Origin: Deltaproteobacteria bacterium
Lineage (GTDB): Bacteria; Desulfobacterota; Desulfobulbia; Desulfobulbales; Desulfobulbaceae
Direction: 5' to 3'
Assembly (NCBI GenBank): GCA_024280455.1
Contig: JAJRQC010000073.1
Span: 1-37,073 of the forward strand
Length of the DNA stretch: 37,073 nt
A program made the position numbers and the translations under genes. Shown here one piece after another: positions 13,056-37,040 of this stretch. The stretch's first letter is position 1. Every line of letters starts with the position of its first letter. A model generated the notes under the pieces. The model was not told the DNA's origin. It searched no databases and saw nothing but the letters and a program-made list of their open reading frames with translations.

Positions 13056-13098
13056 ACATTTTTCCCCATATTTCCTTTTTTTGTTACTCTTCTGCCCA

Positions 13099-13154: not shown

Positions 13155-13192
13155 CTTTTTTAAAAAAAAGAGTAGGCCCCTGAAACAAAATA

Positions 13193-13999
13193 TTATTTTG
13201 CTCGAAGGTATATAATTTTCTGGCTTCCTCCCGGTGCTTGTCGTTCTTCCGTTACAAAGAGATCTGTCTTTGCCTTGACGAGATCTGAGAGTTTTTTGTA
13301 ACCGTATAGTCTGGCGTCAAAATCGGGCTGGAGTTTTGTCAGATAGCTGCCGAATGTGCCAAGCTGTGCCCATCCGGTATCGTCGGTTGATTGCTCCAGT
13401 GCCGATAAAATGAATTTCTTGGGGAATTTGACTTTTTGCTCTTCCGCATGATTAGACGATGACGTCAGGTTTTCTTTTTGTGCATTATCCTTTTTTGGTG
13501 GCGGGATGACTGGCTTATCGTCAATATCCGGGCGGAGGACTTCAGTGAAAATAAACTTATGGCAGGCATTACGAAAGGCCATTGGTGTTTTCTTCTCACC
13601 AAACCCAAGAACGGTCAGACCCTCTTCACGCAACCGCACTGCAAGCCCGGTGAAATCACTGTCACTGGTGATCAGGCAGAATCCATCAAATTTTCGGGTA
13701 TACAGTAAATCCATGGCATCAATGATCATGGTGCTGTCGGTGGCATTCTTCCCGGTCGTATAGGCAAACTGTTGAACCGGCTTGATGGCATACCGCTGGA
13801 GTACTTTTTTCCACGAAGCACTTGTCGGAGCAGTGAAATCGCCATATATGCGTCTGACCGTCGCTTCGCCAAAGCGGGCAATCTCAGCAAGAAGACCTTC
13901 AATGACAGCCGCCTGTGCATTATCAGCATCAATTAAAACCGCCAGCCGAAGCGTTGGTTCTTCCGACTCAAATTTTGCTATCAGTTTTGGGTTCACCAT
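13193..13999 (-). CDS. NYN-domain (LabA/DUF88) putative ribonuclease with C-terminal LOTUS/OST-HTH-like region
   Basis: A 268-aa protein. Residues about 17-160 are a NYN (PIN-like) nuclease domain: RLAVLIDADNAQ, then KNATDSTMIIDAMDLLY, then GFCLITSDSDFTGLAVRLREEG, carrying the acidic residues expected to bind metal. A charged linker (about 160-190) leads to a C-terminal region (FPKKFILSALEQ..GWAQLGTFGSYL, then ARLYGYKKLSDLVKA) with the pattern of an OST-HTH/LOTUS RNA-binding domain. This architecture is seen in bacterial RNA-processing or defence proteins. AAGGAA precedes the ATG. It is co-directional with and upstream of the SNF2 gene. The RNA target is unknown. Confidence 0.87.
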   Translation of the reverse strand: MVNPKLIAKFESEEPTLRLAVLIDADNAQAAVIEGLLAEIARFGEATVRRIYGDFTAPTSASWKKVLQRYAIKPVQQFAYTTGKNATDSTMIIDAMDLLYTRKFDGFCLITSDSDFTGLAVRLREEGLTVLGFGEKKTPMAFRNACHKFIFTEVLRPDIDDKPVIPPPKKDNAQKENLTSSSNHAEEQKVKFPKKFILSALEQSTDDTGWAQLGTFGSYLTKLQPDFDARLYGYKKLSDLVKAKTDLFVTEERQAPGGSQKIIYLRAK

Positions 14000-18898: not shown

Positions 18899-19521
18899 CT
18901 CGCACTGACCTTCCTCTGATACACCTGCTCTAAGCCACTTCCGTATCAGGTTCAGCATACCGGGATCAACTATTCGGTGCTCCACGAACTTCATTAGCCA
19001 TACATGATCGATAGCGTCAAAGAATCCGCGAATATCAGCATCAATACCCATCCCACCTTACGTCGCGTTATACCAACCCACACGGCGTCCAGCGCATTAT
19101 GCTGGTGCCGCCCTGGCCGGAAACCGTAGCTGAAACCAAGAAATGTCTCTTCGTAGATCTGATTGAGTACCCGAACAGCGGCCTGCTGGACCACTTTGTC
19201 CTCCAGGGTCGCTATACCTATAGGACGCTTACGCCCGTCCGGCTTTGGTATCCAGATCCGTTTCGAAGGCATTGCCCGATAACGGCCACTTTGTACGCGC
19301 CTGTGGAGATCAGGTAAGCTGACCTCCAATTCTTCACCGTACTGCTTCCATGTCACGTTAAAGATCCCTGAGGCGGCATCACGTTTCAGTGATTTGTAAC
19401 TGTCTCGGAGAAGGTCTACCGTAATGTGGTGCATAAGGCTGGTGAAACGCAGGTTTTTATCCTTTTGTGCTGCTACACGTATCCTGTCAAGTCCACTCAA
19501 TGCTTGCTCCTGTCTCTGCAC
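18899..19521 (-). pseudogene. Truncated, frameshifted group II intron reverse transcriptase
   Basis: Residues from MQRQEQALSGLDRIRVAAQK onward match LtrA-type proteins: MPSKRIWIPKPDGRKRPIGI, LEDKVVQQAAVRVLNQIYE, FLGFSYGFRPGRHQHNALDA. The frame breaks near 19,045 (one base missing in TTGATG) and resumes with DADIRGFFDAIDH, the first catalytic-Asp block. It then runs into the GGGGAC repeat after about 200 residues. The YADD block, maturase (X) and endonuclease domains are all absent, so it cannot be active. Confidence 0.88.
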
Positions 19522-20238: not shown

Positions 20239-21618
20239 CTAGCCTTCAGCCGTACCGTTCTGGTCATATTTTTTGAGTTTTCGCCACAGGGATACCCGGT
20301 CGATTCCGATGATTTTAGCGGCTTTTGTCTTGTTGCCGTCAACGCTTTTCAGAATGGAGAGGATATACTCGCGTTCATTTTCTTCAAGGCTTTTTCTTGG
20401 TCCGGACACTGTAAGGCTGGGCAGTTGGAAGTGGTGGCTGCTGCTGACCTCCGCCGGCAGATGATGTGTTTTGATCTCCGAGTCATCGCACAGGGCCAGC
20501 GAACGTTCCATGATATTTTCAAGTTCCCGTGCATTGCCCGGAAAATCATATTCCTCCAGCTTGTACAACGCCTCCCTGGAAATACTCTTGCTCTTGTCGC
20601 CCGGTAGAGAATATTTGGCCAGAAAATAGTTGACCAGCAAAGGGATGTCGTCTTTACGTTCCCGGAGTGGCGGGATGTGCAGATTGACGACATTGAGCCG
20701 GTAATAGAGATCCTGGCGAAATGTTCCCTTTTTTATTTCTTCCTTCAGGTCGCGGTTGGTCGCCGCCAGCAGGCGGACATCTATTGGTATCTCCTTGGTC
20801 CCGCCGACCCGGATAATTTTTTTCTCCTGCAGTACCCTGAGTAATTTCACCTGCATTGTGAGCGGCATTTCGCCTATTTCATCGAAAAGGATGACTCCGC
20901 CGTTGGCAGACTCTAGAAGCCCGTTTCGCAGTCCACCGGCATCCGTGTACGCATCTTTTTCATGCCCGAACAGTTCGTTGACCATCAGATCCTCGGTCAT
21001 GGCCGCACAGTTAATGGGGAGAAATCGCCTGTTGGCCCTGGGGCTGAGCTCATAAATCGTTCTTGCCACCAGTTCCTTGCCGGTTCCGGTCTCGCCGGTA
21101 ATGAGTATATTGCAGTCAAGCTGGGCAAAATGGGCTATGGAATCTTTGAGTTTGAGTATCTCGTGGTTCTGGCCGATGAACTGTGTCGTCCCCTGTTGCG
21201 CTTTGATTCGTCGTTTAAGGCGGCTGATCTCTCGCCTGAGCATTGTTTTTTCAGTGGCTCTCAGGACCAGGGCATGCAGTTCCTTGAGTTTTATCGGCTT
21301 GGGGAGGGAATAAAAAGCTCCCTGGGCCATGGCATCTACGGCGGAGTTTACCGTTGCATAGCCGGTGACAATGATGACCTCAATCTCGGGATGGATTTCC
21401 TTGGCGGTTTTCATGACCTGGACGCCGTCAACATCACCCATCTTCAGGTCCGTGATCACCAGGTCAAAGTGAGACTGGGCGAGCAGGTTCATGGCTTCAG
21501 TTCCACTTTCTGCTGTTGTTACCTGAAAGCCTTGTTGTTCGAGGAAATGGCTGACGTTCTGAAGGTTTATCACCTCGTCGTCAACAAGCAGGATTGCAAT
21601 AGTATTATTTTCTGGCAT
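20239..21618 (-). CDS. NtrC-family response regulator with an altered GAFTGA loop
   Basis: A 459-aa regulator; start MPENNTIAILLVDDE chosen because AGGA lies seven bases upstream. Receiver domain residues 7-120 with phosphoacceptor D57 (LVITDLKM) and K107 (PKPIKL). AAA+ domain with Walker A GETGTGKE (K181) and Walker B ILFDEIGEM. C-terminal Fis-type HTH (NKTKAAKIIGIDRVSLWRKL). The sigma-54 contact loop, normally GAFTGA, reads DAYTDA at 222-227, so canonical sigma-54 activation is in doubt. The kinase gene lies 16 bp upstream, so they form an operon. Likely targets are the two sigma-54 promoters with TGTTGCA sites in this window. Confidence 0.93.
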   Translation of the reverse strand: MPENNTIAILLVDDEVINLQNVSHFLEQQGFQVTTAESGTEAMNLLAQSHFDLVITDLKMGDVDGVQVMKTAKEIHPEIEVIIVTGYATVNSAVDAMAQGAFYSLPKPIKLKELHALVLRATEKTMLRREISRLKRRIKAQQGTTQFIGQNHEILKLKDSIAHFAQLDCNILITGETGTGKELVARTIYELSPRANRRFLPINCAAMTEDLMVNELFGHEKDAYTDAGGLRNGLLESANGGVILFDEIGEMPLTMQVKLLRVLQEKKIIRVGGTKEIPIDVRLLAATNRDLKEEIKKGTFRQDLYYRLNVVNLHIPPLRERKDDIPLLVNYFLAKYSLPGDKSKSISREALYKLEEYDFPGNARELENIMERSLALCDDSEIKTHHLPAEVSSSHHFQLPSLTVSGPRKSLEENEREYILSILKSVDGNKTKAAKIIGIDRVSLWRKLKKYDQNGTAEG

Positions 21619-21634
21619 TGTTGTTCCTGAATAT

Positions 21635-23085
21635 TTAACTCTTTCCGGAAGAGTGTTCGTCTTCGTATTCCATATGAAGCGGCAGCGTAATGATAAATCG
21701 GGTTCCCTTGCCCTTCTCAGATTCAACCCGGGTTGAACCGTTTTGTTTCTTTATGATGCCGTACACGACTGCCAGGCCCAGACCGGTTCCGTTGCCGGCG
21801 TTTTTGGTGGTAAAAAACGGGTCGAATATTTTTGGCAGATTTTCCTTGTCGATCCCTGTGCCGGTGTCGGCGACGGTGATGACCGCATTTTTACCGTCTT
21901 CGTCTTTGTCCGCATAGATGGTGACCGCTCCCGGTGCTTTGGGAATGGACTGGAGAGCATTGATCGTCAGATTCAACAGGGCTTCAATCATTTTTTGAAC
22001 ATCGATCAGAAGAATAATATCATCGGGTATGTCGGTATCCAGATTAACGCCTGCCGGGATTTCACTGGCAACAAGTTGTTTGACCCTGTTGACGACTTTT
22101 ACAAGCTGGTAGGGTTGGAGAGAAAATGTCTGTGCCCTGGAAAATTCCAACAGTCCTCGAACAATCTCTCCGGCCCTCTGGGTTTCCTGGTTGATGGTCT
22201 CCAGCATCTTTGCGACCAATGGGTTCTGTTCCGGATCGATTTCGGAAATGGCGATCTGGCAGGACGTGGCAATGTTGTTGAGCGGATTATTAATCTGATG
22301 GGCGGTTCCAGAGGCCAGAGTACCGATTGAGGAGAGTTTTTTTGCCTGAAAGAGCTGCTCCTGTTGTTCTTCCAGATCGGTGACCATTTTATTGAACGCC
22401 CGAAGCACACTGCGAACCTCACCTTTTTTTCATCAACAGGTAGAAGGGAAAAGGTACCGTTGGCGATGTCGATGGCAGCATTCTCAACCATTTTCAAGGG
22501 CTTAATAATCGCAATATAGAGCAGGGTGATGGTAAATCCGGAGAGGAGGATAATAAAAAGAACTGCTTTGAAAAGGAGGCGTTTGAAGTTGGCGATAAAA
22601 GTGGTCATCTTGTGCTGTTCAAAGAGGACCAGGTTTTCGGTCACATTCACAAGGTTCTGACCCAGAGAACGAACTTTATCTCGCAGTGCGCAGTCCGTCG
22701 TCTCCTTTCCGTCGACACATATTTCTTTAAAATCCTGAAAGGTTTTCTTGTATGCCTTCAGGTTTGCCGTCAGGTCCTGCAGGTGTGTGGGCTGCGGCAT
22801 TATTTTCAGGTCATCGACAACCTGGGGGACGAGCTGTTCAGCCTCGTTGATGTATTCAAGAACTTTAGTAAAATCTTCATTGTCATTGGCAATGATAAAG
22901 TTTTTTTCATACCGTCGTATCTCAAGGCAGATGTTGCTGAGGTTGCCCGCATGCATCAGCAGGGTGACATCATCGTTGAACATCTCAAAATCTTTGAGGA
23001 AAGTTGCCCCGGCAACAATGTAAAAAAGCAGATGAAGGCATAAGCAGCCGAGCATCTTCTGGCGTAAATTTAAGGCAATCATCAT
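21635..23085 (-). CDS. Membrane sensor histidine kinase, frame broken at an A-run
   Basis: Two frames together make a 483-aa kinase. The first part has a TM helix (about 8-28), a periplasmic helical sensor with EIRRYEKNFII, a second TM (about 175-200) and a HAMP start. The second part has HAMP end, HisKA (GTLASGTAHQINNPLN, His about 260) and a complete HATPase (NLTINALQS, DTGTGI, FTTKNAGNGTGLGL). The break is at 22,434-22,440 (seven T on plus). In frame 0 it reads GAA AAA AAG, i.e. A-AAA-AAG, and a -1 step restores the protein. An A8 to A7 loss gives the same result. HQ replaces the usual HE after the phosphoacceptor. It should phosphorylate the adjacent regulator. Confidence 0.88.
22433..22441 (-). 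other. In-phase -1 slippery heptamer A AAA AAG in the kinase
   Basis: On the minus strand frame 0 reads GAT GAA AAA AAG GTG. A-AAA-AAG in this phase is the most efficient -1 slip site known in bacteria. After slipping, reading continues GGT GAG GTT CGC and enters the HAMP/HisKA frame. Without it the product stops near 22,099 as a 328-aa membrane sensor lacking the kinase. A one-base homopolymer deletion cannot be excluded. Confidence 0.45.
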
Positions 23086-23547: not shown

Positions 23548-23710
23548 TGTTGCACATCTGAAACATTGTTGCAATGTGTAACGTTGCAAGTCGCAACATT
23601 TCTTTGCGGGCGGTTGTATATTAGCCTTCTGTTATAGTTGTTTTTTTATGGATTTTTTCTCGTCATTATTTTCTTGTCCAGTTTTCAGTATTTTGTTACA
23701 TCCTGCAACA
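23548..23710. promoter_or_regulatory. Cluster of TGTTGCA / TGCAACA sites (candidate activator sites)
   Basis: TGTTGCA at 23,548-23,554 and 23,567-23,573, GTTGCAA at 23,583-23,589, CGCAACA at 23,592-23,598, and TGCAACA at 23,704-23,710. They lie about 100-260 bp upstream of the sigma-54 promoter at 23,805, the usual place for enhancer-binding-protein sites. The same 7-mer pair lies about 245-275 bp upstream of the second sigma-54 promoter. The rest of 23,086-23,800 shows no gene. Confidence 0.55.
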
Positions 23711-24036: not shown

Positions 24037-24119
24037 ATGTTTGTTAACATCCAGTTTTATTAAAAAGAATGAAATTTCCTGCTGATCAGGAACTACGTAT
24101 AACAAAGGATAAAGGAAAA

Positions 24120-25925
24120 ATGACGTTACCTATAATATTAGTCATGGCCGTTCTGGTCCTGGCGATTCTCCTCTTTATTTTTGAATGGGTCCGTGTCGAC
24201 GTTGTCGGCATAATTATGATGATAATTCTTCCCCTGCTGGGCCTTGTTACACCAAAAGAGGCTATCAGCGGGCTGTCAAGTAATGCTGTTGTTTCCATTA
24301 TAGCCGTTATTATTATCGGTGCCGGACTCGATAAGACCGGGGCAATGAATTCCCTGGCCAGGGTTCTGCTCAAGTTTGCCGGCAAAAGCGAGAGCAGGAT
24401 TATGATCCTGATTTCCGGTACGGTGGCCTTTATCTCAAGTTTTATGCAGAATATAGGTGCGGCGGCACTGTTCATGCCTGCTGCAAAGCGTATCTGTCGG
24501 CAGACCAACATCCCGGTTTCTCGGATTCTCATGCCCATGGGCTTCTGTGCAATTATCGGCGGCTGTATCACCCTGATTGGTTCAAGTCCGCTTATTCTCA
24601 TGAACGATGTCATGAAAATTTCCGACCCCGATGTTGAACCCTTCGGGCTTTTTGCCGTGACTCCGGTCGGGCTGGCCCTGATTGTTGCCGCTCTTATCTA
24701 TTTTGTTCTGTTTGGCCGTTTCATCCTTCCTACAGGGCAGGGTGATGAGGGGGGAACCGGGCCTATTTCACCGGAACTCGAAAGAACGTATCATGATATT
24801 GGGAATCTTTTTGAGATTCAAATTCCAGACTCCTTCAATGGTCCGCAAACGCTATCTGAACTTGATATCAGGCCGATCTTTTTTACTACGATCCTCGGAA
24901 TTACTACAAAGGACGGAAGTGCAACCTTATCCCCTGATTTTTCCGACTCCATCAAGGGGGGAGATACTATCATCGTAGAAGGGCCTCCTGAGCTGGTGGC
25001 AAAAATGGTCGAGTCCTTTGGCTGGCTTCTTAAAGAAGATCTGGAGATATTTGCTGAGAATTTTTCCCCGAACAATGCCGGCATCATGGAGGCAATTATT
25101 TCTCCACGCTCGGAACTGGTCGGGAGTACGCTTCGCTCCTTTTCTTTCCGCAAAAAGAATGGGGTAACCCCGCTTGCCGTATTTCAAGATAATAAGACCT
25201 ATGTCGGTGACATCTCAACCATGACCTTGCGGGCGGGCGATGCTTTGCTGCTGCAGGGCCCCTGGGAAAAATTTCATTACCTGAAAGAACGAACCGATCT
25301 TGTCTTTACCGAGGAGGTGCAGGGTGAAATTCTCCGCACCGATAAGATCAAATTTGCAGTGGGCGGCCTGACCCTGGCTCTGGTCATGATTCTTGGTTTT
25401 CATGTCCAGCTTTCGATTGCTCTGCTCGCAGGAGCCATATTCATGGTTCTTACCAAGGTGCTTTCTATTGATGAGGCCTACGATTCGGTGGACTGGATGA
25501 CGGTCTTTCTCCTTGGCGGTCTTATTCCTCTGGGGATTGCCTTTGAAAAAACGGGCGCAGCAAAACTGATTGCAGAAACCATTATGGGCGCGATGGGTAC
25601 GGTTTCTCCGCTCATTCTGCTGACCGTGATTGGTATCCTGACTTCGTTTTTCACCCTGGTTGCCTCCAACGTCGGTGCAACCGTCCTTATGGTTCCGCTT
25701 GCCATGAATATGGCAGCGAGTGCGGGGGCAGACCCACGGATAGCTGCCCTGGTGGTGGCGGTCGCCTGCTCAAATACCTTTATCCTTCCCACTCATCAGG
25801 TGAACGCTTTAATTATGCGTCCCGGCGGATACAAAACAAAGGATTATTTCCGGGCCGGTGCAGGGATGACTGTCCTCTACCTGGTGGTTATGATGGGATC
25901 GATGGTACTGTTTTACGGCCTTTGA
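24120..25925 (+). CDS. SLC13/DASS-family permease with two TrkA_C (RCK_C) domains
   Basis: A 601-aa membrane transporter. Start MTLPIILVMAV is chosen because AAGGA precedes it and the first helix follows at once; an in-frame ATG at 24,069 is less likely. The N-terminal half of the transporter domain (residues about 1-200; GAGLDKTGAMNSLA, SSFMQNIGAAALFMP, GGCITLIGSSPLILMND) is followed by two tandem cytoplasmic TrkA_C modules (about 235-315 and 325-405) and the C-terminal half (SNVGATVLMVPLAMNMA, SNTFILPTHQVNAL). SLC13 proteins couple Na+ to uptake of sulfate, phosphate or carboxylates; TrkA_C modules bind small ligands and may gate transport. The substrate is not determined. It heads the unit that continues with nhaD. 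Confidence 0.9.
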   Translation: MTLPIILVMAVLVLAILLFIFEWVRVDVVGIIMMIILPLLGLVTPKEAISGLSSNAVVSIIAVIIIGAGLDKTGAMNSLARVLLKFAGKSESRIMILISGTVAFISSFMQNIGAAALFMPAAKRICRQTNIPVSRILMPMGFCAIIGGCITLIGSSPLILMNDVMKISDPDVEPFGLFAVTPVGLALIVAALIYFVLFGRFILPTGQGDEGGTGPISPELERTYHDIGNLFEIQIPDSFNGPQTLSELDIRPIFFTTILGITTKDGSATLSPDFSDSIKGGDTIIVEGPPELVAKMVESFGWLLKEDLEIFAENFSPNNAGIMEAIISPRSELVGSTLRSFSFRKKNGVTPLAVFQDNKTYVGDISTMTLRAGDALLLQGPWEKFHYLKERTDLVFTEEVQGEILRTDKIKFAVGGLTLALVMILGFHVQLSIALLAGAIFMVLTKVLSIDEAYDSVDWMTVFLLGGLIPLGIAFEKTGAAKLIAETIMGAMGTVSPLILLTVIGILTSFFTLVASNVGATVLMVPLAMNMAASAGADPRIAALVVAVACSNTFILPTHQVNALIMRPGGYKTKDYFRAGAGMTVLYLVVMMGSMVLFYGL

Positions 25926-26028: not shown

Positions 26029-27447
26029 ATGAAAATATTTCTCTCAACCTGTACCTTCCTGTTTATCGGGGCAAGCCAGGCGTTTGCATCCGGACACGGG
26101 GGCGGTGAAACAGCAGTGAGTCTGACCTCGACAGCTCTTGGCTATGCCTCGCTTGCACTTTTCGTGTTGGCCTATATCTTGGTTATATTTGAAGAAAGAA
26201 CGCATCTTCGTAAAAGCAAGCCAGTGATGATGGCGGCTGGATTCATCTGGATTCTTCTTGCCATTGCCTTTCGTCAGGTGGGTATTCCCGCCGAGGAGGC
26301 GCACAATGCCATTATTCACAATATAACCGAGTATTCAGAGTTGATGCTCTTTCTGCTCGCCGCCATGACCTACATTAACTCAATGGACGAGCGGAATGTA
26401 TTCCAGGCTCTACGTTCCCTGCTGGTTTCCAGGGGTTTTTCACTGCGGGTGGTTTTCTGGATTACCGGGTTTCTTGCCTTTGTCATCTCGCCGGTTGCCG
26501 ATAACCTGACGACTGCTCTGCTTATGGGTGCTGTGGTCATGGCGGTTGCCAAGGATAATAAAAAGTTTATTGCCCTGGCCTGTATTAACATCGTGGTCGG
26601 TGCAAATGCAGGCGGTGCCTTTTCGCCCTTTGGTGATATTACCACCCTTATGGTCTGGCAAAAGGGTCAGGCTGCCTTTGGTGAATTCTTCTACCTCTTT
26701 ATTCCGGCTCTGGTGAACTGGATCATTCCGGCTGCTATCATGAGCGTCTTTGTCTCCAAAGAGGTACCTGAAGCTCTGGATGAATCGGTGCACATGAAAT
26801 TCGGGGCCAGGCGGATCATCTTTCTCTTTCTGCTGACCATTGTTACAGCGGTCTCCTTTCACAACTTTCTCGATCTGCCTCCGGCCGCAGGTATGATGCT
26901 CGGCCTTTCCTATCTGGGATTTTTTTCCTACTACATCAAAGTCAGAGAAAAACGTGCCCATGAATATGATAAACCGCTTGGAATCTCACTCGACCAGCAT
27001 GACAATCCCTTTGATATCTTCAAGCGGGTGGCACAGGCCGAATGGGATACCCTGCTTTTCTTCTACGGTGTTATTCTCTGTGTCGGGGGCCTTTCCCAAT
27101 TCGGGTACCTGGCCCTGGTTTCCCATCAGATGTATGTCGGCCTTGGTGCGACCTACGCCAATATTCTGGTCGGGATTTTATCCGCCATTGTTGATAATAT
27201 TCCGGTTATGTTTGCGGTCTTGACCATGGATCCTTCCATGCCTCTCGGCCAGTGGCTGCTGGTCACTCTGACGGCCGGTGTCGGCGGCAGCCTGCTCTCC
27301 ATCGGTTCAGCTGCCGGTGTCGCCCTGATGGGAACCGCTCGTGGAACCTATACCTTCGGTGCCCATCTGAAATGGGCCCCGGTTGTAGGGCTGGGGTATG
27401 CGGCAAGCATCTATACGCATCTATTGATTAACAGTCGCTTGTTTTAA
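26029..27447 (+). CDS. nhaD: NhaD-type Na+/H+ antiporter
   Basis: A 472-aa membrane antiporter that expels Na+ (or Li+) in exchange for protons. The N-terminus looks like a signal sequence (FLFIGASQAFA-SGHGGG) as in other NhaD proteins, followed by about 12 helices. Family landmarks include EYSELMLFLLAAMTYI, SPVADNLTTALLMGAVVMA, GANAGGAFSPFGDITTLMVW and DNIPVMFAVLTMDPSMP. It lies about 100 bp after the SLC13 permease and 11 bp before the HTH gene. The pairing with a permease of a Na+-coupled family suggests sodium cycling. I looked for a riboswitch in the 103-bp gap and found none I could support. Confidence 0.93.
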   Translation: MKIFLSTCTFLFIGASQAFASGHGGGETAVSLTSTALGYASLALFVLAYILVIFEERTHLRKSKPVMMAAGFIWILLAIAFRQVGIPAEEAHNAIIHNITEYSELMLFLLAAMTYINSMDERNVFQALRSLLVSRGFSLRVVFWITGFLAFVISPVADNLTTALLMGAVVMAVAKDNKKFIALACINIVVGANAGGAFSPFGDITTLMVWQKGQAAFGEFFYLFIPALVNWIIPAAIMSVFVSKEVPEALDESVHMKFGARRIIFLFLLTIVTAVSFHNFLDLPPAAGMMLGLSYLGFFSYYIKVREKRAHEYDKPLGISLDQHDNPFDIFKRVAQAEWDTLLFFYGVILCVGGLSQFGYLALVSHQMYVGLGATYANILVGILSAIVDNIPVMFAVLTMDPSMPLGQWLLVTLTAGVGGSLLSIGSAAGVALMGTARGTYTFGAHLKWAPVVGLGYAASIYTHLLINSRLF

Positions 27448-27458
27448 GGGGGTAGGTT

Positions 27459-27794
27459 ATGGAGTATAGTATACCTGCAGAGGTGATGGGACAGGCCCAA
27501 CTCAGTGGTTACGGCATGGATGAATCAGCGATGGACGACATGATTTCCTCTGTCGCCCATGCGGTCAAGCCGGTTACCGACAACGCTCTTCCCGATCCTA
27601 TCGATTATCTAAAAGAGGTCATGGAACAGCGAGGACTTCGCAACAAGGATTTGAAAATATATATCGGCAGTTCAGGTAATGTCTGTTCCGTGCTTAAGCG
27701 ACGAAAACCGCTTACCCTGCGGATGATACGAAATCTGCATAAGTATCTTGGTATTCCGGCCGAGATACTTATTCAACCGTATACCTGTCGTTGA
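27459..27794 (+). CDS. HigA-like XRE-family HTH protein
   Basis: A 111-aa protein. The C-terminal part DPIDYLKEVMEQRGLRNKDL, then SSGNVCSVLKRRKPLTLRMI and LHKYLGIPAEILIQPY, is the HigA-type helix-turn-helix (the D-P-x-D-x-L-K entry and the LGIP.e.L ending). The N-terminal 45 residues are unlike HigA and may bind a partner. No HigB toxin is adjacent, so it is better viewed as a regulator in the nhaD unit than as an antitoxin. It starts 11 bp after nhaD behind GGGGG. Confidence 0.75.
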   Translation: MEYSIPAEVMGQAQLSGYGMDESAMDDMISSVAHAVKPVTDNALPDPIDYLKEVMEQRGLRNKDLKIYIGSSGNVCSVLKRRKPLTLRMIRNLHKYLGIPAEILIQPYTCR

Positions 27795-27810: not shown

Positions 27811-27864
27811 CAATTGCCGGTGCGTGCGGTAAACACTACCGCACGCACCGGCAACCGGCAATTG
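27811..27864 (+). promoter_or_regulatory. Two-state hairpin upstream of the receiver-Lon gene
   Basis: GCCGGTGCGTGCGGTA (27,816-27,831) pairs perfectly over 16 bp with 27,837-27,852, loop AACAC. A second possibility pairs CAATTGCCGG (27,811-27,820) with CCGGCAATTG (27,855-27,864), because the 3' arm carries ACCGGCA twice in tandem. The two outer pairings exclude each other. No T-run follows and the Lon ribosome binding site GGAGAGGG starts about 12 bases downstream, so it could set translation of Lon or act as a processing or partial termination site. Confidence 0.6.
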
Positions 27865-27883: not shown

Positions 27884-29910
27884 ATGAGTTTTTTTTCAAA
27901 AAAAGAACATGAACCTGAAACTTCGGGAACCGGTGAAACCCTCGGTTCTCGACAGGTAAAGGAACTTAAAGCCAGGACTGCAGGCACGGATCTGCCGCCC
28001 TATGTTGCGCGTCAGGTGACAAATGAGCTTGATCGCCTGGAGAAAACCGATCCGGTTGCGGCTGAATTTTCCATCGGGGTCAACTATATCGAACTCCTGC
28101 TCTCACTGCCGTGGTTCAAGGAAACCCGGGATAATCTTGATCTTGGCCGGGCCGAATCCATTATGTCCTCCCATCATTACGGATTGGAGCTTGTCAAGAC
28201 GAGAATATTAGAATTGCTAGCCGCCAAAACCCTAAAAAAACAAGAGAAATCAAGAATATTGATCGTTGACGATGAAGAGGTCGCCCGCGATAACCTGCGG
28301 CATTTTTTTAATTCTCAAGGCCATACGGTTGAAGTAGCTGCCAATGGGGTTGATGCCCTGCAGCAGGTGGAAAAAAGTGAACATTTCGATATCCTGATCA
28401 CTGATCTGAAAATGGACAGGATGGACGGGCTCACCCTGATCGAAAAGGTTGCCAAGGCATCTCCGGAAACCAATGTCATCATGGTCACCGGCTACGCGAC
28501 GGTGTCCAATGCCGTTGATGCCATGCGCAAGGGGGCAACCCATTATCTTTCCAAACCGGTTCAGCTTGATGAATTGAAACAGACTGTAGAGGAAATTCTC
28601 CACAAACAAAAAAAGCTCCAGGTCAGCCAGGGGCCTGTACTCTGTTTTTCCGGGCCCCGGGAACCGGAAAAACCTCCATCGGTCAGTCGGTGGCGACCTC
28701 GCTTGGCCGGGAGTTTGTTCGTCTGTCAATGGCCGGATTGCGTGATGAGGCGGAAATCAGGGGGCATAGAAGAACGTATGTCGGGGCCATGCCGGGGCGT
28801 ATCATCAGTGAGATTAAACGAATCGGGGTGACCAATCCCTGTTTTATGCTCGATGAAATCGATAAGATCGGACAGGATTTCAGGGGTGATCCCGCCTCGG
28901 TGCTGCTTGAGGTCCTTGATCCCGAACAGAACAGGAATTTTACTGATCATTATCTTGATATTCCCTTTGATCTGTCGGGGATTCTGTTCATTGCAACGGC
29001 CAATGACCTGGGGAAACTGCCCGGGCCCTTACTGGACCGATTGGAAGTGATCGATTTTTCCAGCTATTCGTTTCAGGAAAAAAAGACCATAGCCAGGGAA
29101 TATCTTTTACCCAAACAGCTGGCTGCCCATGGACTCACCGATATCAACCCACAGGTTACTGATAACGCCCTGGGAAAGTTGATTGTCAACTACACCAGGG
29201 AATCCGGGGTCCGAGGGCTCAGTCGAGAGATCGGAACTATCTGTCGAAAATTGGCTCTGCAGGTTTTGAAAAATGAAGGGGAAAAGTCGCTCCCGGTCAT
29301 TGACGAAGAGGCGATCACTCCAATGCTCGGACCTCGCAAGTATCGTCAGGAGGCCGCCGAGGGAGAAGATAAGGTCGGAGTTGTAACCAGCTTGGTCTGG
29401 ACCCGTTATGGCGGTGAAATTATGTTCATTGAAGCCCTGGCAATGCGGGGCAGCACCAACCTTATCCTGACCGGATCACTGGGTGAGGTGTTGCGCGAGT
29501 CCGCCCAGACCGCCTTGAGTTACATACGAAGCCATACTGAAGCCCTGGGGATTGCCCCTGATTTCTATGATAAGTCGGACATCCATATTCATCTGCCGGC
29601 CGGTGCGGTTTCAAAAGACGGCCCCTCTGCCGGTGTCGCCATGGCTGTTGCCCTGGTTTCCCTGCTTACCGATCGACCGGTCCATCGGAATGTATCGATC
29701 ACCGGCGAGATGACGCTTACCGGGCAGGTATTACCGGTTGGTGGAATTCGTGAAAAATTACTGGCCGGGGTTCGAACCGGCTGTGTCAAGGTTGTCCTGC
29801 CCGCAAAAAATCGGGAAGATGTTGCCTCGCTGAGCGACGATGTTACCGGTCATCTGGAACTGGTATACGTGGATTCCCTTGACGAGGCCATCGTCCACAT
29901 GTTGCTCTGA
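27884..29910 (+). CDS. Lon-type AAA+ protease with an inserted receiver domain (frame broken at a C-run)
   Basis: Two frames together give 675 aa. Residues 1-118 are the Lon segment before the ATPase (LPPYVARQVTNELDRLEK, LPWFKE, HHYGLELVKTRILE); the N-terminal substrate-binding lobe is absent. A receiver domain follows (about 124-240: DD129-130, D174 in LITDLKM, K224). Then Lon AAA+: GPPGTGKT (spanning the break), FMLDEIDKIG and the S16 protease with Ser in KDGPSAGVAMA and Lys in REKLLAG. The break is at CCCC 28,655-28,658: one more C restores PGTGKT; the site is not a standard slip heptamer, and unshifted product stops at 28,831. Phosphorylation of D174 probably controls the ATPase. The adjacent kinase is the likely donor. 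Confidence 0.9.
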
Positions 29911-30022: not shown

Positions 30023-30057
30023 TGTTGCATTTTGTTACGGGGTTACACCTTGCAACA
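30023..30057. promoter_or_regulatory. TGTTGCA-N21-TGCAACA dyad (candidate activator site)
   Basis: A perfect 7-bp inverted repeat, TGTTGCA 30,023-30,029 and TGCAACA 30,051-30,057, with the sub-block TTTTGTTAC shared with 23,690. It lies about 245-275 bp upstream of the sigma-54 promoter at 30,298. A weaker relative, TTGTTTCA...TGCAACAA, is near 30,185-30,205. The remaining part of 29,911-30,378 holds no gene. Confidence 0.55.
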
Positions 30058-30297: not shown

Positions 30298-30315
30298 TTG
30301 GCACGACCCGTGCAA
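30298..30315 (+). promoter_or_regulatory. Sigma-54 promoter of the UspA-like gene
   Basis: TTGGCACGACCCGTGCAA: a perfect -24 element TTGGCACG with GG at 30,300-30,301 and GC at 30,312-30,313, spaced ten bases; the -12 element is GTGCA instead of TTGCA. A start point near 30,325 would leave a leader of about 55 bases. Confidence 0.8.
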
Positions 30316-30378: not shown

Positions 30379-30933
30379 ATGGGATTCACTGATTGGTTCG
30401 CACTGGGAATGAAGAAAAATAAAGAAGTTAAAGTTAAAAAGATCAAGGAAGCGTCAGTTGATATGGGGGCAATGGCAGCCGGTAGTCCGTCAGAAGCCGC
30501 TGGTGCCTTAGCCCGGTTAATGGATCAGAAAAACGCGCCGACCAAGGTGCTCATGATCCAGGATGGAGAATATATGCCCCAGGTCACGGATTATGCACTG
30601 AAGATGGCCGAGCGGCTTGACTGTGAAATTATTGCCCTTGATGTAACCGATAGACCCTTGCAGTTTTCGGGTGACAGGAGAGCAAGAGAAACCGATCGTT
30701 TCGTGGAAATGGCTGCGCAGAGTGCCGAGAAATTTACCAGTCAGGCCACTGCCCGCGGAATCAAGGTCGAACATATTACTGAGATTGGAGATCCCGAAGA
30801 GGTTATTGCAAAGATCAGTGCTGCCGATGCCGGTATTCGCTACGTCTTGAGCAAGCCGGAAGAGGGCACGATTCGTGCCGGCGAGGAACGCGTTCATGTT
30901 CCTGTCTTTGATCTCCACTGTTCACGTTTATAA
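30379..30933 (+). CDS. UspA-like stress protein with an N-terminal extension
   Basis: A 184-aa protein; the ATG at 30,379 has GAGGAG six bases upstream, better than a TTG at 30,346. Residues 1-50 are a basic then alanine-rich extension (MGFTDWFALGMKKNKEVKVK). From about 55 the fold is UspA-like: PTKVLMIQDG, then YALKMAERLDCEIIALDVTD, IKVEHITEIGDPEEVIAKIS and a terminal strand VPVFDLHC. The usual ATP-binding GxxGxxG loop is not evident. It is preceded by a sigma-54 promoter and activator sites like those before the permease, so it probably belongs to the same regulon. Its role is unknown. Confidence 0.7.
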   Translation: MGFTDWFALGMKKNKEVKVKKIKEASVDMGAMAAGSPSEAAGALARLMDQKNAPTKVLMIQDGEYMPQVTDYALKMAERLDCEIIALDVTDRPLQFSGDRRARETDRFVEMAAQSAEKFTSQATARGIKVEHITEIGDPEEVIAKISAADAGIRYVLSKPEEGTIRAGEERVHVPVFDLHCSRL

Positions 30934-30962: not shown

Positions 30963-31235
30963 ATGGAACCCTTGACAATATTTGCATCAACCGTTGGATT
31001 TATCGCCGCTTTTCATCTGGTTTCTACAACCGTTGACCGTTTGAGCAAAAGAAGCTACGGTCATGGCAGTCAGCAGACCAAAAGAGAGGACTGGTATTGT
31101 TTCTTTCAACCATCCGACCTTCTGGGGGCTGACTGGGGTTCCACCGACAGCGGTGACCAGCAGCAACCAACCGTTTCCGACAACCTTGATCAGAGACGTC
31201 GCCAGCAGGAACGTCGACCGCGTCTTCAAGCCTGA
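30963..31235 (+). CDS. Small single-pass membrane protein, unknown function
   Basis: A 90-aa protein with a perfect AGGAGG six bases before ATG 30,963. The N-terminal helix LTIFASTVGFIAAFHLVST is clearly membrane-like; the rest is polar and Gln/Arg-rich. The downstream +1 frame (31,063-31,266) is also open and looks protein-like (SFNHPTFWGLTGVPP), so the true C-terminus is uncertain and a frame error is possible. It follows the UspA-like gene by 29 bp and is closed by a strong terminator. Confidence 0.6.
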   Translation: MEPLTIFASTVGFIAAFHLVSTTVDRLSKRSYGHGSQQTKREDWYCFFQPSDLLGADWGSTDSGDQQQPTVSDNLDQRRRQQERRPRLQA

Positions 31236-31694: not shown

Positions 31695-34600
31695 TCATTC
31701 CTCCTGTAGATATCGCAACTCAACCACAGGGACTTCCCAGCTCTCGCATTGGCACCGCTTCTGAAAATCCTGATCCAGGATATCCGTTCTGCAACGACGG
31801 GCAAGGGCAATGACCGTTATTTCCTTGATACTCTCTATACGATCCTGCCATCGTGCCTGGGCAGTTTTTGAAAGACGGGCCACAGGGGTCCCGCCATGAT
31901 TGAGGAGGTGCAGGAAACTGTTGTCGCGGCTGATGGTCAGACGGCTGCCGGCTGTAAGTGCCCTGATAGCCCTGCTGGTGGGATGACTCTCTTTTTTCAT
32001 CCCGGCAAAATCAATAAACAGTTCCTTCATACCAAGCAGTTCATAGTGTGGAACCAGTTGCGGCAGCGTATGAGACGGGGTGACCTCACGGTTCATCAGA
32101 AAGTCGCCGCCCAGGAGGCCGACATGTGGATTCTGTGAATTGTCGCTGGCAAAAAGCTGCAGGGTTTCCCGGGCTCGCGACATGGCCACATAGTAGAGTC
32201 TGCGCTCCTCTTCCATGTCCCGGCCTGTCTTTTTCCGCCAGTTGCCGTCCAGGACAAAAACATGGTCAAATTCCAGTCCTTTTATTGAGTGGACGGTGGA
32301 GAGAAAGATGCCGTTTTCCAAATTCCGGCCGCGATGCTGATCGGCCAGGGCCTCATAGAGATAATTTTCCACCCGTCCCACCGGTTGCGGCGTATTCCCG
32401 GTCTCCTCCGACCACTCCTGAAGAAGAGAGCGCAGGTTTGCCTGCCAGATATTTTTTTCCGCCCCGATCTCCGGCAGAAAGTTCAGCAGTGTTTTGGCGG
32501 TGACCTGTTCCTCACTGCAGTTATGAAGAAAAGTCAGCAGATCTGCATTTTCCCTGATCCGGGACAGGCCGGGAAATGCACTCCTCCCCCAGTTAAGGCT
32601 TACCGAAATGCCTTCCGCTTCAAATACGCTGCGGACAATATCAAGCTCCTGCCACTCCCTGGCCAGTATGGCGCAGCTGTTCAGATCAAAATCACTGCTC
32701 AGGCTCTGCAGACGCAGTAGTTCCTCCAGCAGGACAAGGGCCTGGGCTGTCGCACCTTTCACCCGAAAAATCTGCACCTTTCCCTGCCCACTCTGGTCGT
32801 TGAGCTGCCAGTTGCCCCCCGGCGGCAGGGTCTCTCTGGCCCGGTTGATTGCTATGGGATGCTCCTGCTTCATCCTGTCCCGGTTATGAACAATGAGCGC
32901 GTTGGCCGCCCTGATAATATTGGCAGTGGATCTGTAGTTCTCGGTCAGATAATGGACATCAGCATGGTAATCCGCCTTGAAACGTCTGATGAAGTCAACA
33001 TTTGCCCCGCGAAAACGATAGATATTCTGGTCATCATCCCCCACCGCCAGAATGGTAAGCTTTTCATCTTTTTCCGTGAGCGCCCTGCCGGCCAGCAGGG
33101 AAACCAGTTCATACTGTTCCTCATCGATATCCTGATACTCATCCACCAGAATATGGCTGAATCCGGACACCAAAGCATCCCTTGGCCGGCCATCTGCAAA
33201 ACCAAGAACATCACACTCACCCTTGAGCAGGGCGACTGCATCCTGGATCACCCTGGAAAAATCAATCTCCTCCCGGACCGAACCGCCGGTCTGCCTGACC
33301 AGGGATCTGCCGGTCAACCTCAGGGCCAGCCCATGGAAGGTCAGCGTTGTTACCCTGGCCATATCTCTGCCGACCATGTCCCGCAGTCTTCGACGAAGGC
33401 CCATGACAGCGCTCCGATTGAAACAGAGGACCAGGATAGCTTCCGGGCGAACCCGCTTCACCCTGAGCAGATAGGCCACCCGGTGGGCAACTGTCCTGGT
33501 TTTACCGGCTCCAGGGCCTGCCATGATGAGCATATTGGTCTCCGTAGGTGCTTCGACAATCGCTTCCTGGGCCTTGTTGTGCAGGTCTTCGACTATTCGT
33601 TGATACGACTGCTCGCTGGTTGCCCGTTCCAACAACTCCTCCCTGCCGGGAAAGAAACGTTGAATAAAGTCTTCCTTTTCATCGTTGAAGTATGAGTGCA
33701 CCAGATTCATGGCCAGGCTTATTTTTTTTATCGCGCAGCGGGCATACTCGTTGATGACATGGACTTGAAAGTTCTTTTCAGAGTAATGGGTTTTCAACGG
33801 TTCAAAATTCGCCTTTGTATATTGCCTGCCCTTGGTCTCCGGGTTGATGGTGATGGTCATGGCCTGTCTGAAAACAGCCAGCCCCTGCTGCAGTTCAATC
33901 ACCCCCTGTTCATGCATAAAAGTCAGGCCCCGTTCCGCTGCCGCAAGCGGATCCCGGAGTGCGGAAAACAGGAACAGATCTTTCTTCAGCCCTTCGACGA
34001 TCCCCTCAAGGGTAAATTCCAGCAGCAGAGAGGCGTTGGCCCGGACATTGCCCTGCAAAGGGGCCAGGATAACCCTTAGAGCCACATGGGCTGCCTGCTG
34101 ACGGATATCGACCGTCTTCCGCAGAGACTCCCAGTCACGGTGCAGCATGATGGAAAAACTGTTATTTCCCCTGGACTTAATACTGACGCTTCCCTTCTGT
34201 CCGGCCAAGCCCTTGCCGTCACGACTCAAGCCCCGGAGAACCAGGGCCAAACTGCCGGGCGTACTGTAGCTGTGGCCCATATCGATCAGATGCTGATTAA
34301 CCTGCCTGAGATCAATCACCAGGTTTTTTTCACTATCCGCATCCGGCGCAGTGTCCTGGAGTATTTTCAAGAAATCCCTTTCCAGGTCGCAAAAGCGTGT
34401 GAGGCGATTTTTTGAGCTGTCTTTGACCTTATAGCGGACATAGGCCGAGAGGACCATCTCTTTGGAGAGCAGCCCCTGCTGCGCCATATCCTCCAGGGTC
34501 CGCAGTACTCTTTGGGTCTCGGTTTCACTTTCCGGATCATCATCAGTATGCGCAAAGGAACTCAGGCAGGCTAGATCATCGGCACTGAATCCTGTTGCAG

Positions 34601-36872
34601 GCGGACTCTCCATCAGAGCGGCGAGGATGGAAATCCACCGTTTCCGCTGTCTCTTTGAGAGACCAAGTTTCTCTATCTTCCCCTCTGCCTCTTCCAGGTT
34701 ACGCACAAGCGGTTGTCCCTGAAAAACGCGGGTATCGTTCTCATTTCGGTGCAGGAAACCGCTCCTCTCCAGCCATGAAACCGCCGTCTTGACCCGGGTA
34801 TCCCTGTCCCGGCCAAATTCATCCTCATTGATGTCAACCACACCCAACCTGAGAATTTCTCCGGAAGTCAGCACCACTTTGCCGTCTTTTTTTGCGGAAA
34901 AACGCAGGCCGCGCAGAATCTGGGCGATCTCCCGCCGGGTCAACCGCGAGTTGCTGCTCATCCGAAACTGACCTTCAACATCCTGCTCGGTGAAAATCAG
35001 GATGCACTCGGCCTCATCGCGATCCCGCCCCGCACGTCCGGCCTCCTGAAGATAATTCTCAAGGGAACCCGGGATGTCGGCATGGATAACCAGTCGCACA
35101 TCATCCTTGTCAATGCCCATGCCAAAGGCATTGGTGGCGCAGATAACCGGGACCTCTCCACCGATAAAGTCGTTCTGAATACGGTTTTTTACAAAAGGAT
35201 CCAGGCCGGCGTGAAAGGCCTCCACCCTGTAGCCTTCATTTGCCAGAAACTCGGTCAGATTCTCGGTATTTTTGCGAGTCGCACAATAAATGACCACACT
35301 GCCCGAGTCACTGAAACGCGTTTTGAGCAGGGTCAGGATCGTCTGGTTTTTTTCATAACTGTTCACCGGCCATACTTCGTAGTGCAGATTGTCCCGCTCA
35401 TGGCCTCCGGCAAATGTAAGAACCCGCAGTCCGAGTTCACGGCCGATAATATCGAGGATCTCGGATTGTACATCTTTCTTGGCCGTTGCCGTGAAACACT
35501 GGACAGGAGGGATTGCACTTTTTTGCTTTTGGGCGAATTCCCGGATGAAACGAATGGAATAAAGATAATCCGGGCGAAAATCATGCCCCCATTTGGACAG
35601 GCAATGCGCTTCATCAAAGACCCAGGCACCAATCTCCCGCTGACTGATGGTCTGGACAAAAGAACGGTTACGCAACTGTTCCGGTGAAACATACAAAATG
35701 CCCACATCCCCCAGCCTGACACCGTCCATCACCTCACCTCTTTCGGGCATGGACAGCATGCCGTTAATGGCCGCAGCCAGAGTGGTTCCCGTCTGCCTGG
35801 CAAAATTTTCCACCTGGTCTTTCATCAGGGCCTGCAAAGGAGAAATAACGATGGTCAAGGTATTGCGCCGACGATAGCGCATCAGGGCGGGAAGCAGGTA
35901 ACAGAGGGTTTTCCCCCCTCCGGTGGGCAAGGTGGCAAAAAGGGAAGAATTCCGGGCAGCGGCTGTTACAATTGTTTCCTGCAGACTCCTGCCGTCATCG
36001 GCTGCCGGCTGGGGCCGAAAGTCCTCAAACCTAAAATACTTTTGCAGAAAAGCCCGTGGATTATGATTTGTTTGGCAATAGGTGCAGTCGGGGTTGCTGC
36101 AGGGCTGTTCACGCAGCTGATGAAGAAGGCCGACTACCACGGGGAAATGGTGGCGAACCCACGGAGGCAGGACCGAATTGCCGCCGGAAACACTCAACCA
36201 CGCGGTCACATAGGCCAGCGGTGGGTGTTCTAAATGTTTATCAATCAGCTGCTCTACAAGTTTTTCCAGGGCCTCTCTGCAGACATTTTTCTGAATGCGC
36301 CAGGAAAAGGCCTCATAAAGATCATCATCCTCCAGAAGAGGGACCCCCATTGCTCCAAAGGCAACGGATGTACCTGCAAACTTTTCATCTTTGTCAAAGA
36401 ATCCCCGGTAGATCAATGGAGCATCCGAGCCACCGGCCAGCAACTGTGAAAAAGCGTCCCATTGTTCAGTGAAGACCTTTCCGGCCAGTACGGCATCTTC
36501 AGCCGGATTGTTTATACTGTCCCTGACGATCTGATAATTCTTGACCAGTCGATGGTAGGGATTTTCCGGAAAGGCAAGGGGAGAGAGATAGAGGGTGTCG
36601 ACCACCGGTTTATGCAGAATTGCAAGTGTTGGATCCTTTTCATGCAGGCAGGGGATATCGTGGGAGAGGATATTATGGCCGAGGATAAACTCCGCACTGC
36701 TGCCGAAGTCATCAAACCGGGCAAGCTGTTCTTTGCCGACTTTCCGCCCTTGCGGGGTATTGAACTTTTTCCCGTTGAAAAATGCGCCCAGGGCATAGAT
36801 TTCACCGTTCTCATTTGTTTCAATATCAAACAAGAGACAGCGAGTAAGAAATGCCTGGCTATCATTGGACAT
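31695..36872 (-). CDS. DEDD exonuclease - RecQ helicase - UvrD/Rep helicase fusion
   Basis: A 1725-aa protein; start MSNDSQAFLTRC chosen for AGGGG six bases upstream (an in-frame ATG at 36,950 lies in the dispersed element). Residues 10-170 are a DnaQ-like 3'-5' exonuclease: LLFDIETN (D16, E18), ILGHNILSHDI, then an Asp in PAEDAVLAG. RecQ core about 300-650: LPTGGGKT (about 316), FDEAHCLSKWGHDFR (about 419), QEAGRAGRDRDEAE. The Cys cluster of the RecQ zinc domain is not visible. After a helical region comes an SF1A motor: GPGAGKTRT (about 1124), VDEYQDIDEEQYE (about 1247), VHSIKGLEFDHVF (about 1531), YYVAMSRARE. Probably a DNA repair or anti-phage machine unwinding in both polarities. Confidence 0.93.
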   Translation of the reverse strand: MSNDSQAFLTRCLLFDIETNENGEIYALGAFFNGKKFNTPQGRKVGKEQLARFDDFGSSAEFILGHNILSHDIPCLHEKDPTLAILHKPVVDTLYLSPLAFPENPYHRLVKNYQIVRDSINNPAEDAVLAGKVFTEQWDAFSQLLAGGSDAPLIYRGFFDKDEKFAGTSVAFGAMGVPLLEDDDLYEAFSWRIQKNVCREALEKLVEQLIDKHLEHPPLAYVTAWLSVSGGNSVLPPWVRHHFPVVVGLLHQLREQPCSNPDCTYCQTNHNPRAFLQKYFRFEDFRPQPAADDGRSLQETIVTAAARNSSLFATLPTGGGKTLCYLLPALMRYRRRNTLTIVISPLQALMKDQVENFARQTGTTLAAAINGMLSMPERGEVMDGVRLGDVGILYVSPEQLRNRSFVQTISQREIGAWVFDEAHCLSKWGHDFRPDYLYSIRFIREFAQKQKSAIPPVQCFTATAKKDVQSEILDIIGRELGLRVLTFAGGHERDNLHYEVWPVNSYEKNQTILTLLKTRFSDSGSVVIYCATRKNTENLTEFLANEGYRVEAFHAGLDPFVKNRIQNDFIGGEVPVICATNAFGMGIDKDDVRLVIHADIPGSLENYLQEAGRAGRDRDEAECILIFTEQDVEGQFRMSSNSRLTRREIAQILRGLRFSAKKDGKVVLTSGEILRLGVVDINEDEFGRDRDTRVKTAVSWLERSGFLHRNENDTRVFQGQPLVRNLEEAEGKIEKLGLSKRQRKRWISILAALMESPPATGFSADDLACLSSFAHTDDDPESETETQRVLRTLEDMAQQGLLSKEMVLSAYVRYKVKDSSKNRLTRFCDLERDFLKILQDTAPDADSEKNLVIDLRQVNQHLIDMGHSYSTPGSLALVLRGLSRDGKGLAGQKGSVSIKSRGNNSFSIMLHRDWESLRKTVDIRQQAAHVALRVILAPLQGNVRANASLLLEFTLEGIVEGLKKDLFLFSALRDPLAAAERGLTFMHEQGVIELQQGLAVFRQAMTITINPETKGRQYTKANFEPLKTHYSEKNFQVHVINEYARCAIKKISLAMNLVHSYFNDEKEDFIQRFFPGREELLERATSEQSYQRIVEDLHNKAQEAIVEAPTETNMLIMAGPGAGKTRTVAHRVAYLLRVKRVRPEAILVLCFNRSAVMGLRRRLRDMVGRDMARVTTLTFHGLALRLTGRSLVRQTGGSVREEIDFSRVIQDAVALLKGECDVLGFADGRPRDALVSGFSHILVDEYQDIDEEQYELVSLLAGRALTEKDEKLTILAVGDDDQNIYRFRGANVDFIRRFKADYHADVHYLTENYRSTANIIRAANALIVHNRDRMKQEHPIAINRARETLPPGGNWQLNDQSGQGKVQIFRVKGATAQALVLLEELLRLQSLSSDFDLNSCAILAREWQELDIVRSVFEAEGISVSLNWGRSAFPGLSRIRENADLLTFLHNCSEEQVTAKTLLNFLPEIGAEKNIWQANLRSLLQEWSEETGNTPQPVGRVENYLYEALADQHRGRNLENGIFLSTVHSIKGLEFDHVFVLDGNWRKKTGRDMEEERRLYYVAMSRARETLQLFASDNSQNPHVGLLGGDFLMNREVTPSHTLPQLVPHYELLGMKELFIDFAGMKKESHPTSRAIRALTAGSRLTISRDNSFLHLLNHGGTPVARLSKTAQARWQDRIESIKEITVIALARRCRTDILDQDFQKRCQCESWEVPVVELRYLQEE

Positions 36873-36932
36873 TCTTGCCCCTGGGAAACGGAAGGATAAT
36901 AAACAGTTACAAACATCATTACTTGTTTTGTC

Positions 36933-37040
36933 GTAACTGTTCAGCTGCACCCAATCTTCAGGCGATCAGGCGCCTCACATAGGCGGGCTATAGATTCGTT
37001 GGCCTGATTACCTGAATCTCAGGCACATCTGAACAGTTAC
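36933..37040. repeat. MITE-like 108-bp element with 12-bp terminal inverted repeats (copy 2 of the dispersed element)
   Basis: GTAACTGTTCAG (36,933-36,944) and CTGAACAGTTAC (37,029-37,040) are exact inverted repeats bounding 108 bp without coding capacity. The inner part up to 36,987, read on the minus strand, matches 13,099-13,154 upstream of the SNF2 gene. A further AACAGTTAC at 36,902-36,910 faces the left arm. It occupies the promoter region of the exonuclease-RecQ-UvrD gene and ends 33 bp before the window edge. Confidence 0.6.

Follow-up and report, generated by a model that had tools for sequence, protein, structure and literature searches.

Lon proteases with a receiver domain before the AAA+ module form a fairly widespread fusion that may link two-component signalling to proteolysis

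Can a two-component system act directly through proteolysis, by way of a Lon protease that carries its own receiver domain? The question is raised by a locus in the 37,073-nucleotide stretch of DNA analysed here (the window), for which a preliminary description had read positions 27884-29910 as a Lon protease without its substrate-binding N-terminal lobe (N-lobe) and with a receiver between the Lon helical segment and Walker A, an arrangement said to be rarely described. Rarity is borne out by the literature that we searched, where three papers name DVU3303, with the qualification that excerpts of Rajeev et al. 2011 (PMC3333781) already present DVU3303-DVU3305 of Desulfovibrio vulgaris Hildenborough as a "three-component system" and suggest that DVU3303 may need phosphorylation for protease activity.

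The anatomy of the protein is as proposed (Table 1). Pfam Response_reg matches residues 125-235 of the window protein (2.1e-30), and the receiver splits the match to the NCBIfam lon model (TIGR00763) into two parts, model positions 253-357 on its N-terminal side and 351-793 on its C-terminal side. Since this match begins only at model position 253, the N-lobe and the remaining N-terminal region are missing, and no N-lobe is found among the Pfam matches of the window protein either. The domain order Response_reg, Lon AAA+ and Lon_C is present across two frames. D129/D130, D174 and K224 sit exactly where they had been placed and, together with T202, provide the acidic pair, acceptor Asp, Thr/Ser and Lys of a response-regulator receiver, while the Lon_C domain with its Ser-Lys catalytic dyad is that of a LonA (S16) protease. 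The AAA+ module is of the Lon type by both Pfam and NCBIfam and no sigma-54 interaction domain follows the receiver; the protein may work like NtrC, though it is no member of the NtrC family. Three further Lon genes with long frames of 806, 859 and 789 residues are found in the same genome.

Table 1. Features of the Lon-receiver locus (positions in the window).
Feature	Position	Strand	Basis or remark
Sigma-54-dependent response regulator (receiver, AAA+, Fis-type HTH)	20239-21726	-	Pfam
Histidine kinase, C-terminal part (HisKA, HATPase_c)	21635-22408	-	Pfam
Histidine kinase, N-terminal sensor part, other frame	22099-23085	-	
Two adjacent palindromes GTTRC-N5-GYAAC	23568-23597 (starts 23568, 23583)		between kinase and transporter
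Palindrome GTTRC-N5-GYAAC	23695-23709		upstream of transporter gene
Anion transporter (Pfam CitMHS with TrkA_C)	24069-25925	+	DASS-like, below NCBIfam cut-off
Na+/H+ antiporter NhaD	26029-27447	+	Pfam, NCBIfam
111-aa ORF	27459-27794	+	near Lon-receiver gene in several close relatives
Lon-receiver protein, N-terminal piece	27884-28651	+	short N-terminal tail, Lon helical segment, receiver, linker to Walker A
Lon helical segment	about 27953-28243	+	
Receiver	about 28247-28603	+	
Receiver acidic pair D129/D130 codons	28268-28273	+	sequence position
Phospho-acceptor D174 codon	28403-28405	+	sequence position
Receiver K224 codon	28553-28555	+	sequence position
Frame change, inside Walker A at C run	28652-28662	+	
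AAA+ domain, in second frame	28642-29052	+	Pfam AAA
Lon AAA+ lid	29125-29286	+	Pfam Lon_lid
Lon_C protease domain	29299-29904	+	Pfam Lon_C 6.8e-78
Catalytic Ser codon	29626-29628	+	in Lon_C
Catalytic Lys codon	29755-29757	+	in Lon_C
Palindrome GTTRC-N5-GYAAC	30042-30056		upstream of Usp gene
Sigma-54-like -24/-12 site	30299-30314	+	80 bp before Usp start
Universal stress protein (Usp)	30379-30933	+	Pfam Usp
90-aa ORF, conserved DWYCFF motif	30963-31235	+	near Usp in relatives

What has to be given up is the reading of 27884-29910 as one gene frame. By start codons it consists of two overlapping open frames (27884-28831 and 28690-29910), with a one-base shift within Walker A at a point where the relatives are single-framed; the LonA set of AAA+ motifs (Walker A and B, sensor 1 and Arg finger) is complete in these relatives. 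The neighbouring histidine kinase is split as well, near 22424-22430, where its coding strand has a run of A that is one base longer in the related loci L066 and L067 and absent in L038, and the kinase of L066 is a single frame. The window module is either mis-sequenced or recently inactivated. We lean towards error, since each of the two breaks falls at a homopolymer run, a common site of sequencing errors. A true inactivation of protease and kinase, with the module decaying in this genome alone, seems rather doubtful to us, though frame changes affect two of the three signalling genes of the window, and the same scan, coarse as it is and with two events being few, found none when applied to 20 stretches elsewhere in the genome (homologues covered 35.4 kb of these, leaving five of the 20 stretches without coverage, compared to 9.2 kb in the window). 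The fusion is also seen in none of seven same-genus genomes. However, the constraint on the window copy has not loosened, its mean identity to six outgroups over AAA+ and protease domains being 0.616, compared to 0.601-0.620 for eight intact relatives. Contamination was considered separately and is not supported: in tetranucleotide composition the window correlates with the pooled genome stretches at 0.92, while 15 stretches of at least 15 kb reach at most 0.909 against the rest, in a blunt test in which the window is the longer sequence and a stretch of another genome still reached 0.825. Furthermore, a piece from the same-genus genome G002 is 97% identical over 62 residues to the NYN protein of the window, which speaks against contamination.

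Relatives were collected from several sources. A first search of 57 genomes, including the window's own, gave 14 candidate relatives, and a search of genome contigs gave 23, besides six further loci that are receivers only. Across 395 genomes of the window phylum (taken as Desulfobacterota from named relatives), a profile of the N-terminal part matched 55 at 1e-45, 51 of which have Lon-receiver genes by query coverage (a count that includes the window's own genome and three others with short frames) and four of which have receivers only. In the phylum of Candidatus Magnetobacterium, which we take to be Nitrospirota, 24 of 198 genomes matched at 1e-55. In the phylum of Woeseia and locus L061, presumably Pseudomonadota, none of 398 genomes matched at 1e-55 in a search run without a positive control. 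Excerpts of Rajeev et al. 2011 (PMC3333781) report DVU3305 orthologues, mostly alongside the Lon regulator, in Thermodesulfovibrio, Thioalkalivibrio and Dechloromonas, and because of the latter two genera we consider the fusion rare at most, not absent, in Pseudomonadota. Some genomes with an apparent orthologue of the regulator show no Lon-receiver fusion.

In a scan of 104 loci with a full-length model, 100 contain a frame scoring above 850 bits (all except L054, L056, L059 and L078), of which 99 are distinct sequences. A fusion by chance is excluded, as it is encoded by a single long frame at all these 100 loci. Relatives do not show the separate receiver gene that would have refuted the proposed reading. 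The fusion is genuine, fairly widespread and was first described by others. Two of the sequences are incomplete: L079 (the same gene as L021) has a gap that spans the end of the receiver and Walker A, and in L058 the frame starts past most of the helical segment. The receiver is conserved throughout, with the acceptor Asp and Thr/Ser202 kept in 100/100 relatives, the first residue of the acidic pair in 100/100 and the second in 98 (two have Glu), Tyr/Phe221 in 99/100 and Lys in 99/100 (one gap). The same holds for the Lon part, where the Walker A Lys is kept in 99/100 (one gap), the catalytic Ser in 99/100 (one X), and Walker B, sensor 1, Arg finger, pore-loop Tyr and catalytic Lys in all 100. 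Pfam detected no N-lobe at a threshold of 0.01 in the seven relative frames scanned, which include several of the longest. Independent insertions of the receiver are not supported, given that the Lon receivers group together in one tree when the broken copy L078 is counted (branch support 88/69, from few columns). A role in defence was rejected, the sole match being that of BrxL to the protease domain.

The receiver also sits at a nearly invariant place in the chain. The helical Trp and the receiver Asp are 52 residues apart in 99/100 relatives, and the receiver Lys precedes the Walker A Lys by 39 residues in all 99 that have both, while the segment before the protease domain (K456-G499) varies, with a length of 43 in 73/100 and the eight commonest values spanning 42 to 62. 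If the receiver were loosely tethered, its distances to both neighbours could vary, and their constancy suggests that the receiver is coupled to the ring. When the relative L037 is aligned to Bacillus subtilis Lon (3m6a), the first part of the Lon match ends at chain residue 104 and the second begins at 101, which puts the inserted receiver immediately in front of Walker A. The structure predicted for L037, a single-chain model of moderate confidence (pLDDT 73.3, pTM 0.56) that does not address the ring, has a receiver fold at residues 124-240 (block pLDDT 65-88), and the 50 PDB matches shown for it are all Lon proteases, at low whole-chain TM-scores of 0.25-0.30.

The Lon-receiver gene of the window has both a histidine kinase, out of frame, and a sigma-54-dependent response regulator nearby. 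These two are encoded on the minus strand, with the transporter, NhaD, the 111-aa ORF, the Lon-receiver protein and Usp on the plus strand. For the relatives, we counted neighbours around Lon-receiver genes only, at loci flanked by 3 kb or more in both directions and within 9 kb, scoring kinases above 350 bits and regulators above 640 bits (L056, L057, L059, L165, L174, L188, L193 and loci with less than 3 kb on a side were left out). Among 37 loci from the window phylum (43 fetched of 51), 27 have the kinase, 28 the regulator, 25 both, 24 Usp and 26 the transporter; for the 18 Nitrospirota-type loci (24 fetched), the corresponding numbers are 14, 11, 11, 14 and 14. The first set gave 8, 7, 7, 9 and 9 of 11 loci (14 fetched), and the named contigs with their short flanks gave 5, 6, 5, 10 and 8 of 13 (23 fetched). 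The kinase-regulator pair is accordingly not nearby at 12/37 and 7/18 loci of the two phylum-wide draws.

Two small ORFs accompany the module. The 111-aa ORF has no Pfam or NCBIfam match, and we take its C-terminal half to resemble a small HTH antitoxin; its relatives lie near the Lon-receiver gene in L066, L067, L037, L039, L040 and L043. For the DWYCFF ORF no family was found, and two of its relatives scanned were without an NCBIfam match. Between the 111-aa ORF and the Lon-receiver gene lies an inverted repeat (27814-27854) whose 18-bp arms match perfectly around a loop of 5 nt, and the gap before this gene contains strong hairpins in L066, L043 and L038 that differ from that of the window. 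Elsewhere the window encodes an 869-aa protein with archaeo-eukaryotic primase and helicase domains of a TOTE system (14901-17510; Pfam AEP-TOTE 1e-90, PADLOC PrimPol), a 1751-aa protein uniting DpdF-like and UvrD/GajB-like helicase parts (31695-36950), an SNF2 helicase with a weak SWIM match adjoining the NYN-OST-HTH protein (10008-13999), and a short reverse transcriptase fragment, possibly a mobile-element remnant (18994-19521).

A shared palindrome, GTTRC-N5-GYAAC, may connect these genes. It occurs four times in the window against 0.07 expected, but because the pattern was derived from the window itself, this enrichment is circular and the relatives provide the test. Over 105 loci (1.54 Mb, window included, a few overlapping) it occurs 96 times, compared to 5.0 in base shuffles, and 21 of the 31 spacings below 130 bp measure 78-92 bp. 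Sites resembling the sigma-54 -24/-12 consensus lie within 320 bp downstream of 21/96 palindromes, compared to 1.5% of random places. Such a site precedes Usp in five of nine relatives scanned (L066, L068, L039, L040 and L043), with none at the same threshold in L067, L038 and L042 and the stretch of L037 ending before any Usp gene. In L053-L057 (Desulfovibrio/Nitratidesulfovibrio), a pair of palindromes lies close upstream of the Lon-receiver match. The palindrome is found at 19/37 loci of the window-phylum draw and only 3/18 of the Nitrospirota-type draw. We regard it as a candidate operator of the module.

If kinase, regulator and protease form one module, the receivers of the latter two might answer to the same kinase. 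A second receiver match at 1e-45 is present in 31 Lon-receiver genomes, on the same contig within 12 kb in 22 of them and elsewhere in nine. Across 61 loci with both genes, receiver identity is higher within than between loci for alpha-1, the main kinase-docking helix (0.568 vs 0.525), for beta5-alpha5, the other kinase-contact segment (0.510 vs 0.462), and for the rest of the receiver (0.502 vs 0.482), with 0/2000 permutations as high in each region, an excess that is confounded by kinship. Stronger is the comparison to 61 other receivers: in alpha-1, the Lon receivers share 52.5% identity with module regulators and 24.2% with the others, compared to 48.3% and 37.6% in the rest of the domain, with little special excess in beta5-alpha5 (46.2% and 33.9%). 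When receivers are matched for similarity in the rest of the domain, alpha-1 identity is 0.493 for two regulators vs 0.262 for 12 others (bin 0.40-0.44), 0.506 for 24 vs 0.319 for three (0.44-0.48) and 0.540 for 35 vs 0.450 for seven (0.48-0.60), so the contrast shrinks at the highest similarity. Several of the other receivers most like the Lon receivers group with the module regulators in the tree. Taken together, these sequence comparisons make a fairly strong case that one kinase serves both the Lon receiver and the sigma-54 regulator.

A receiver-controlled Lon is the best reading of the locus, because nearly all of the 100 relatives have complete active sites, the spacing is fixed, and kinase and sigma-54 regulator adjoin in most loci. 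We consider it probable, with some reserve, that the protein is a LonA-type protease with a receiver at its hinge which is phosphorylated by the neighbouring kinase, and that its ring then degrades a small set of targets. The kinase would phosphorylate both D174 of the Lon receiver and the receiver of the sigma-54 regulator; phosphorylation would promote assembly or ATPase activity of the Lon ring, much as receivers control NtrC-type AAA+ rings; and proteolysis of a few targets by the ring would give the same stress response its post-translational arm. Control of assembly or ATPase is favoured because the receiver precedes the AAA+ ring at fixed spacing and the N-terminal region of Lon has been lost. 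That region helps substrate binding and hexamer stability, so its loss may itself weaken hexamers, which counts against our reading. We hold with moderate confidence that phosphorylation would gate the ring, and with weak to moderate confidence that it would activate rather than repress. In a fuller version that we put forward only tentatively, a single kinase would act on a pair of AAA+ rings by way of sibling receivers. One ring would be a sigma-54 activator that switches genes on, and the other a Lon ring whose receiver forms a rigid collar at the hinge, with phosphorylation assembling the protease for dedicated targets.

Genetic data from D. vulgaris bear on this reading. Excerpts of Trotter et al. 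2023 (PMC10102598) give pairwise cofitness above 0.9 for the three genes, which may be a polar effect given that Rajeev et al. speak, in the excerpted text (PMC3333781), of one operon for the genes of the system. Disruption of the three-gene system raises fitness in chlorate, while its target DVU3299 is needed in chlorate (excerpts of PMC10102598), which a system that simply activates this transporter would not explain. Some DVU3305 targets have UspA domains according to excerpts of PMC3333781, and an excerpted paper on the sigma-54 regulome (PMC4641369) gives the same targets.

Alternatively, the receiver could be a docking surface, and proteolysis of the sigma-54 regulator or of the kinase by the Lon ring would end the response. 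The close relationship of the two receivers and the joint travel of their genes would fit such a feedback protease, but all three D. vulgaris mutants behave alike and a protease that removes its partners should give the opposite sign (unless polarity explains the likeness), which makes this alternative unlikely. We judge it still less probable that the receiver does no more than act as a phosphate sink or scaffold to whose state the Lon part is indifferent: the literature searched, mostly without subscription papers, contained no biochemical test of or support for the gating of a Lon protease by a receiver, but the fixed spacing (99/100 and 99/99) and the relay residues Thr/Ser202 and Tyr/Phe221 (100/100 and 99/100) suggest coupling. 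A programmed frameshift near Walker A yielding two products would fit two further Lon-receiver genes that change frame, nearby in the linker at a run of A (L020/L078) or upstream of the receiver (L058). It hardly deserves credence, as 100/104 loci have a long single frame and the breaks fall at differing places.

Receiver control of the Lon ring thus remains our preferred reading, to which the present analysis adds the breadth of the fusion, its fixed spacing, the docking-helix signature of a shared kinase and the shared palindrome. With 51/395 and 24/198 genomes in two phyla, the Lon-receiver gene is no local oddity. If gating is true, it would be a protease switched by a two-component kinase within its own chain, for which the literature searched offers only a suggestion, and direct proteolysis would be a two-component output common to both phyla. 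A naturally phospho-controlled Lon would then also be a lesson in hinge control of a ring. D. vulgaris, with its existing transposon mutants, is a tractable model and a route to the targets.

Among known systems, the locus is closest to that of DVU3303, which belongs to a three-gene signalling system found in sulfate reducers and their relatives. There, too, a response regulator carries a Lon protease and is accompanied by a histidine kinase and a sigma-54 regulator, with UspA-domain genes and a putative anion transporter among the regulated neighbours; this link rests on architecture, neighbours and the Desulfovibrio/Nitratidesulfovibrio relatives (among L053-L057). It differs in that the transporters of the window are CitMHS/DASS-like and NhaD, in that its protease is encoded amid transporter and Usp genes, divergently from kinase and regulator, and in that the window copy is out of frame. 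Bacterial LonA (S16) shares the helical segment, Walker A and B, sensor 1, Arg finger, pore-loop Tyr and Ser-Lys protease, yet lacks a receiver inserted just before Walker A and has the N-lobe that we did not find here. A receiver directly before an AAA+ module is otherwise the arrangement of NtrC-type sigma-54 activators such as NtrC1 and LuxO, and excerpts of PMC4878744 describe that the unphosphorylated NtrC1 dimer cannot form rings and phosphorylation permits active oligomers, and that the receiver linker of LuxO blocks the ATP site. Unlike in these activators, a Lon helical segment precedes the receiver and the output would be proteolysis rather than sigma-54 remodelling. Receiver state also controls proteolysis in the case of RssB and CpdR, but both are separate adaptor proteins, whereas the receiver of the Lon-receiver protein lies inside the protease chain itself.
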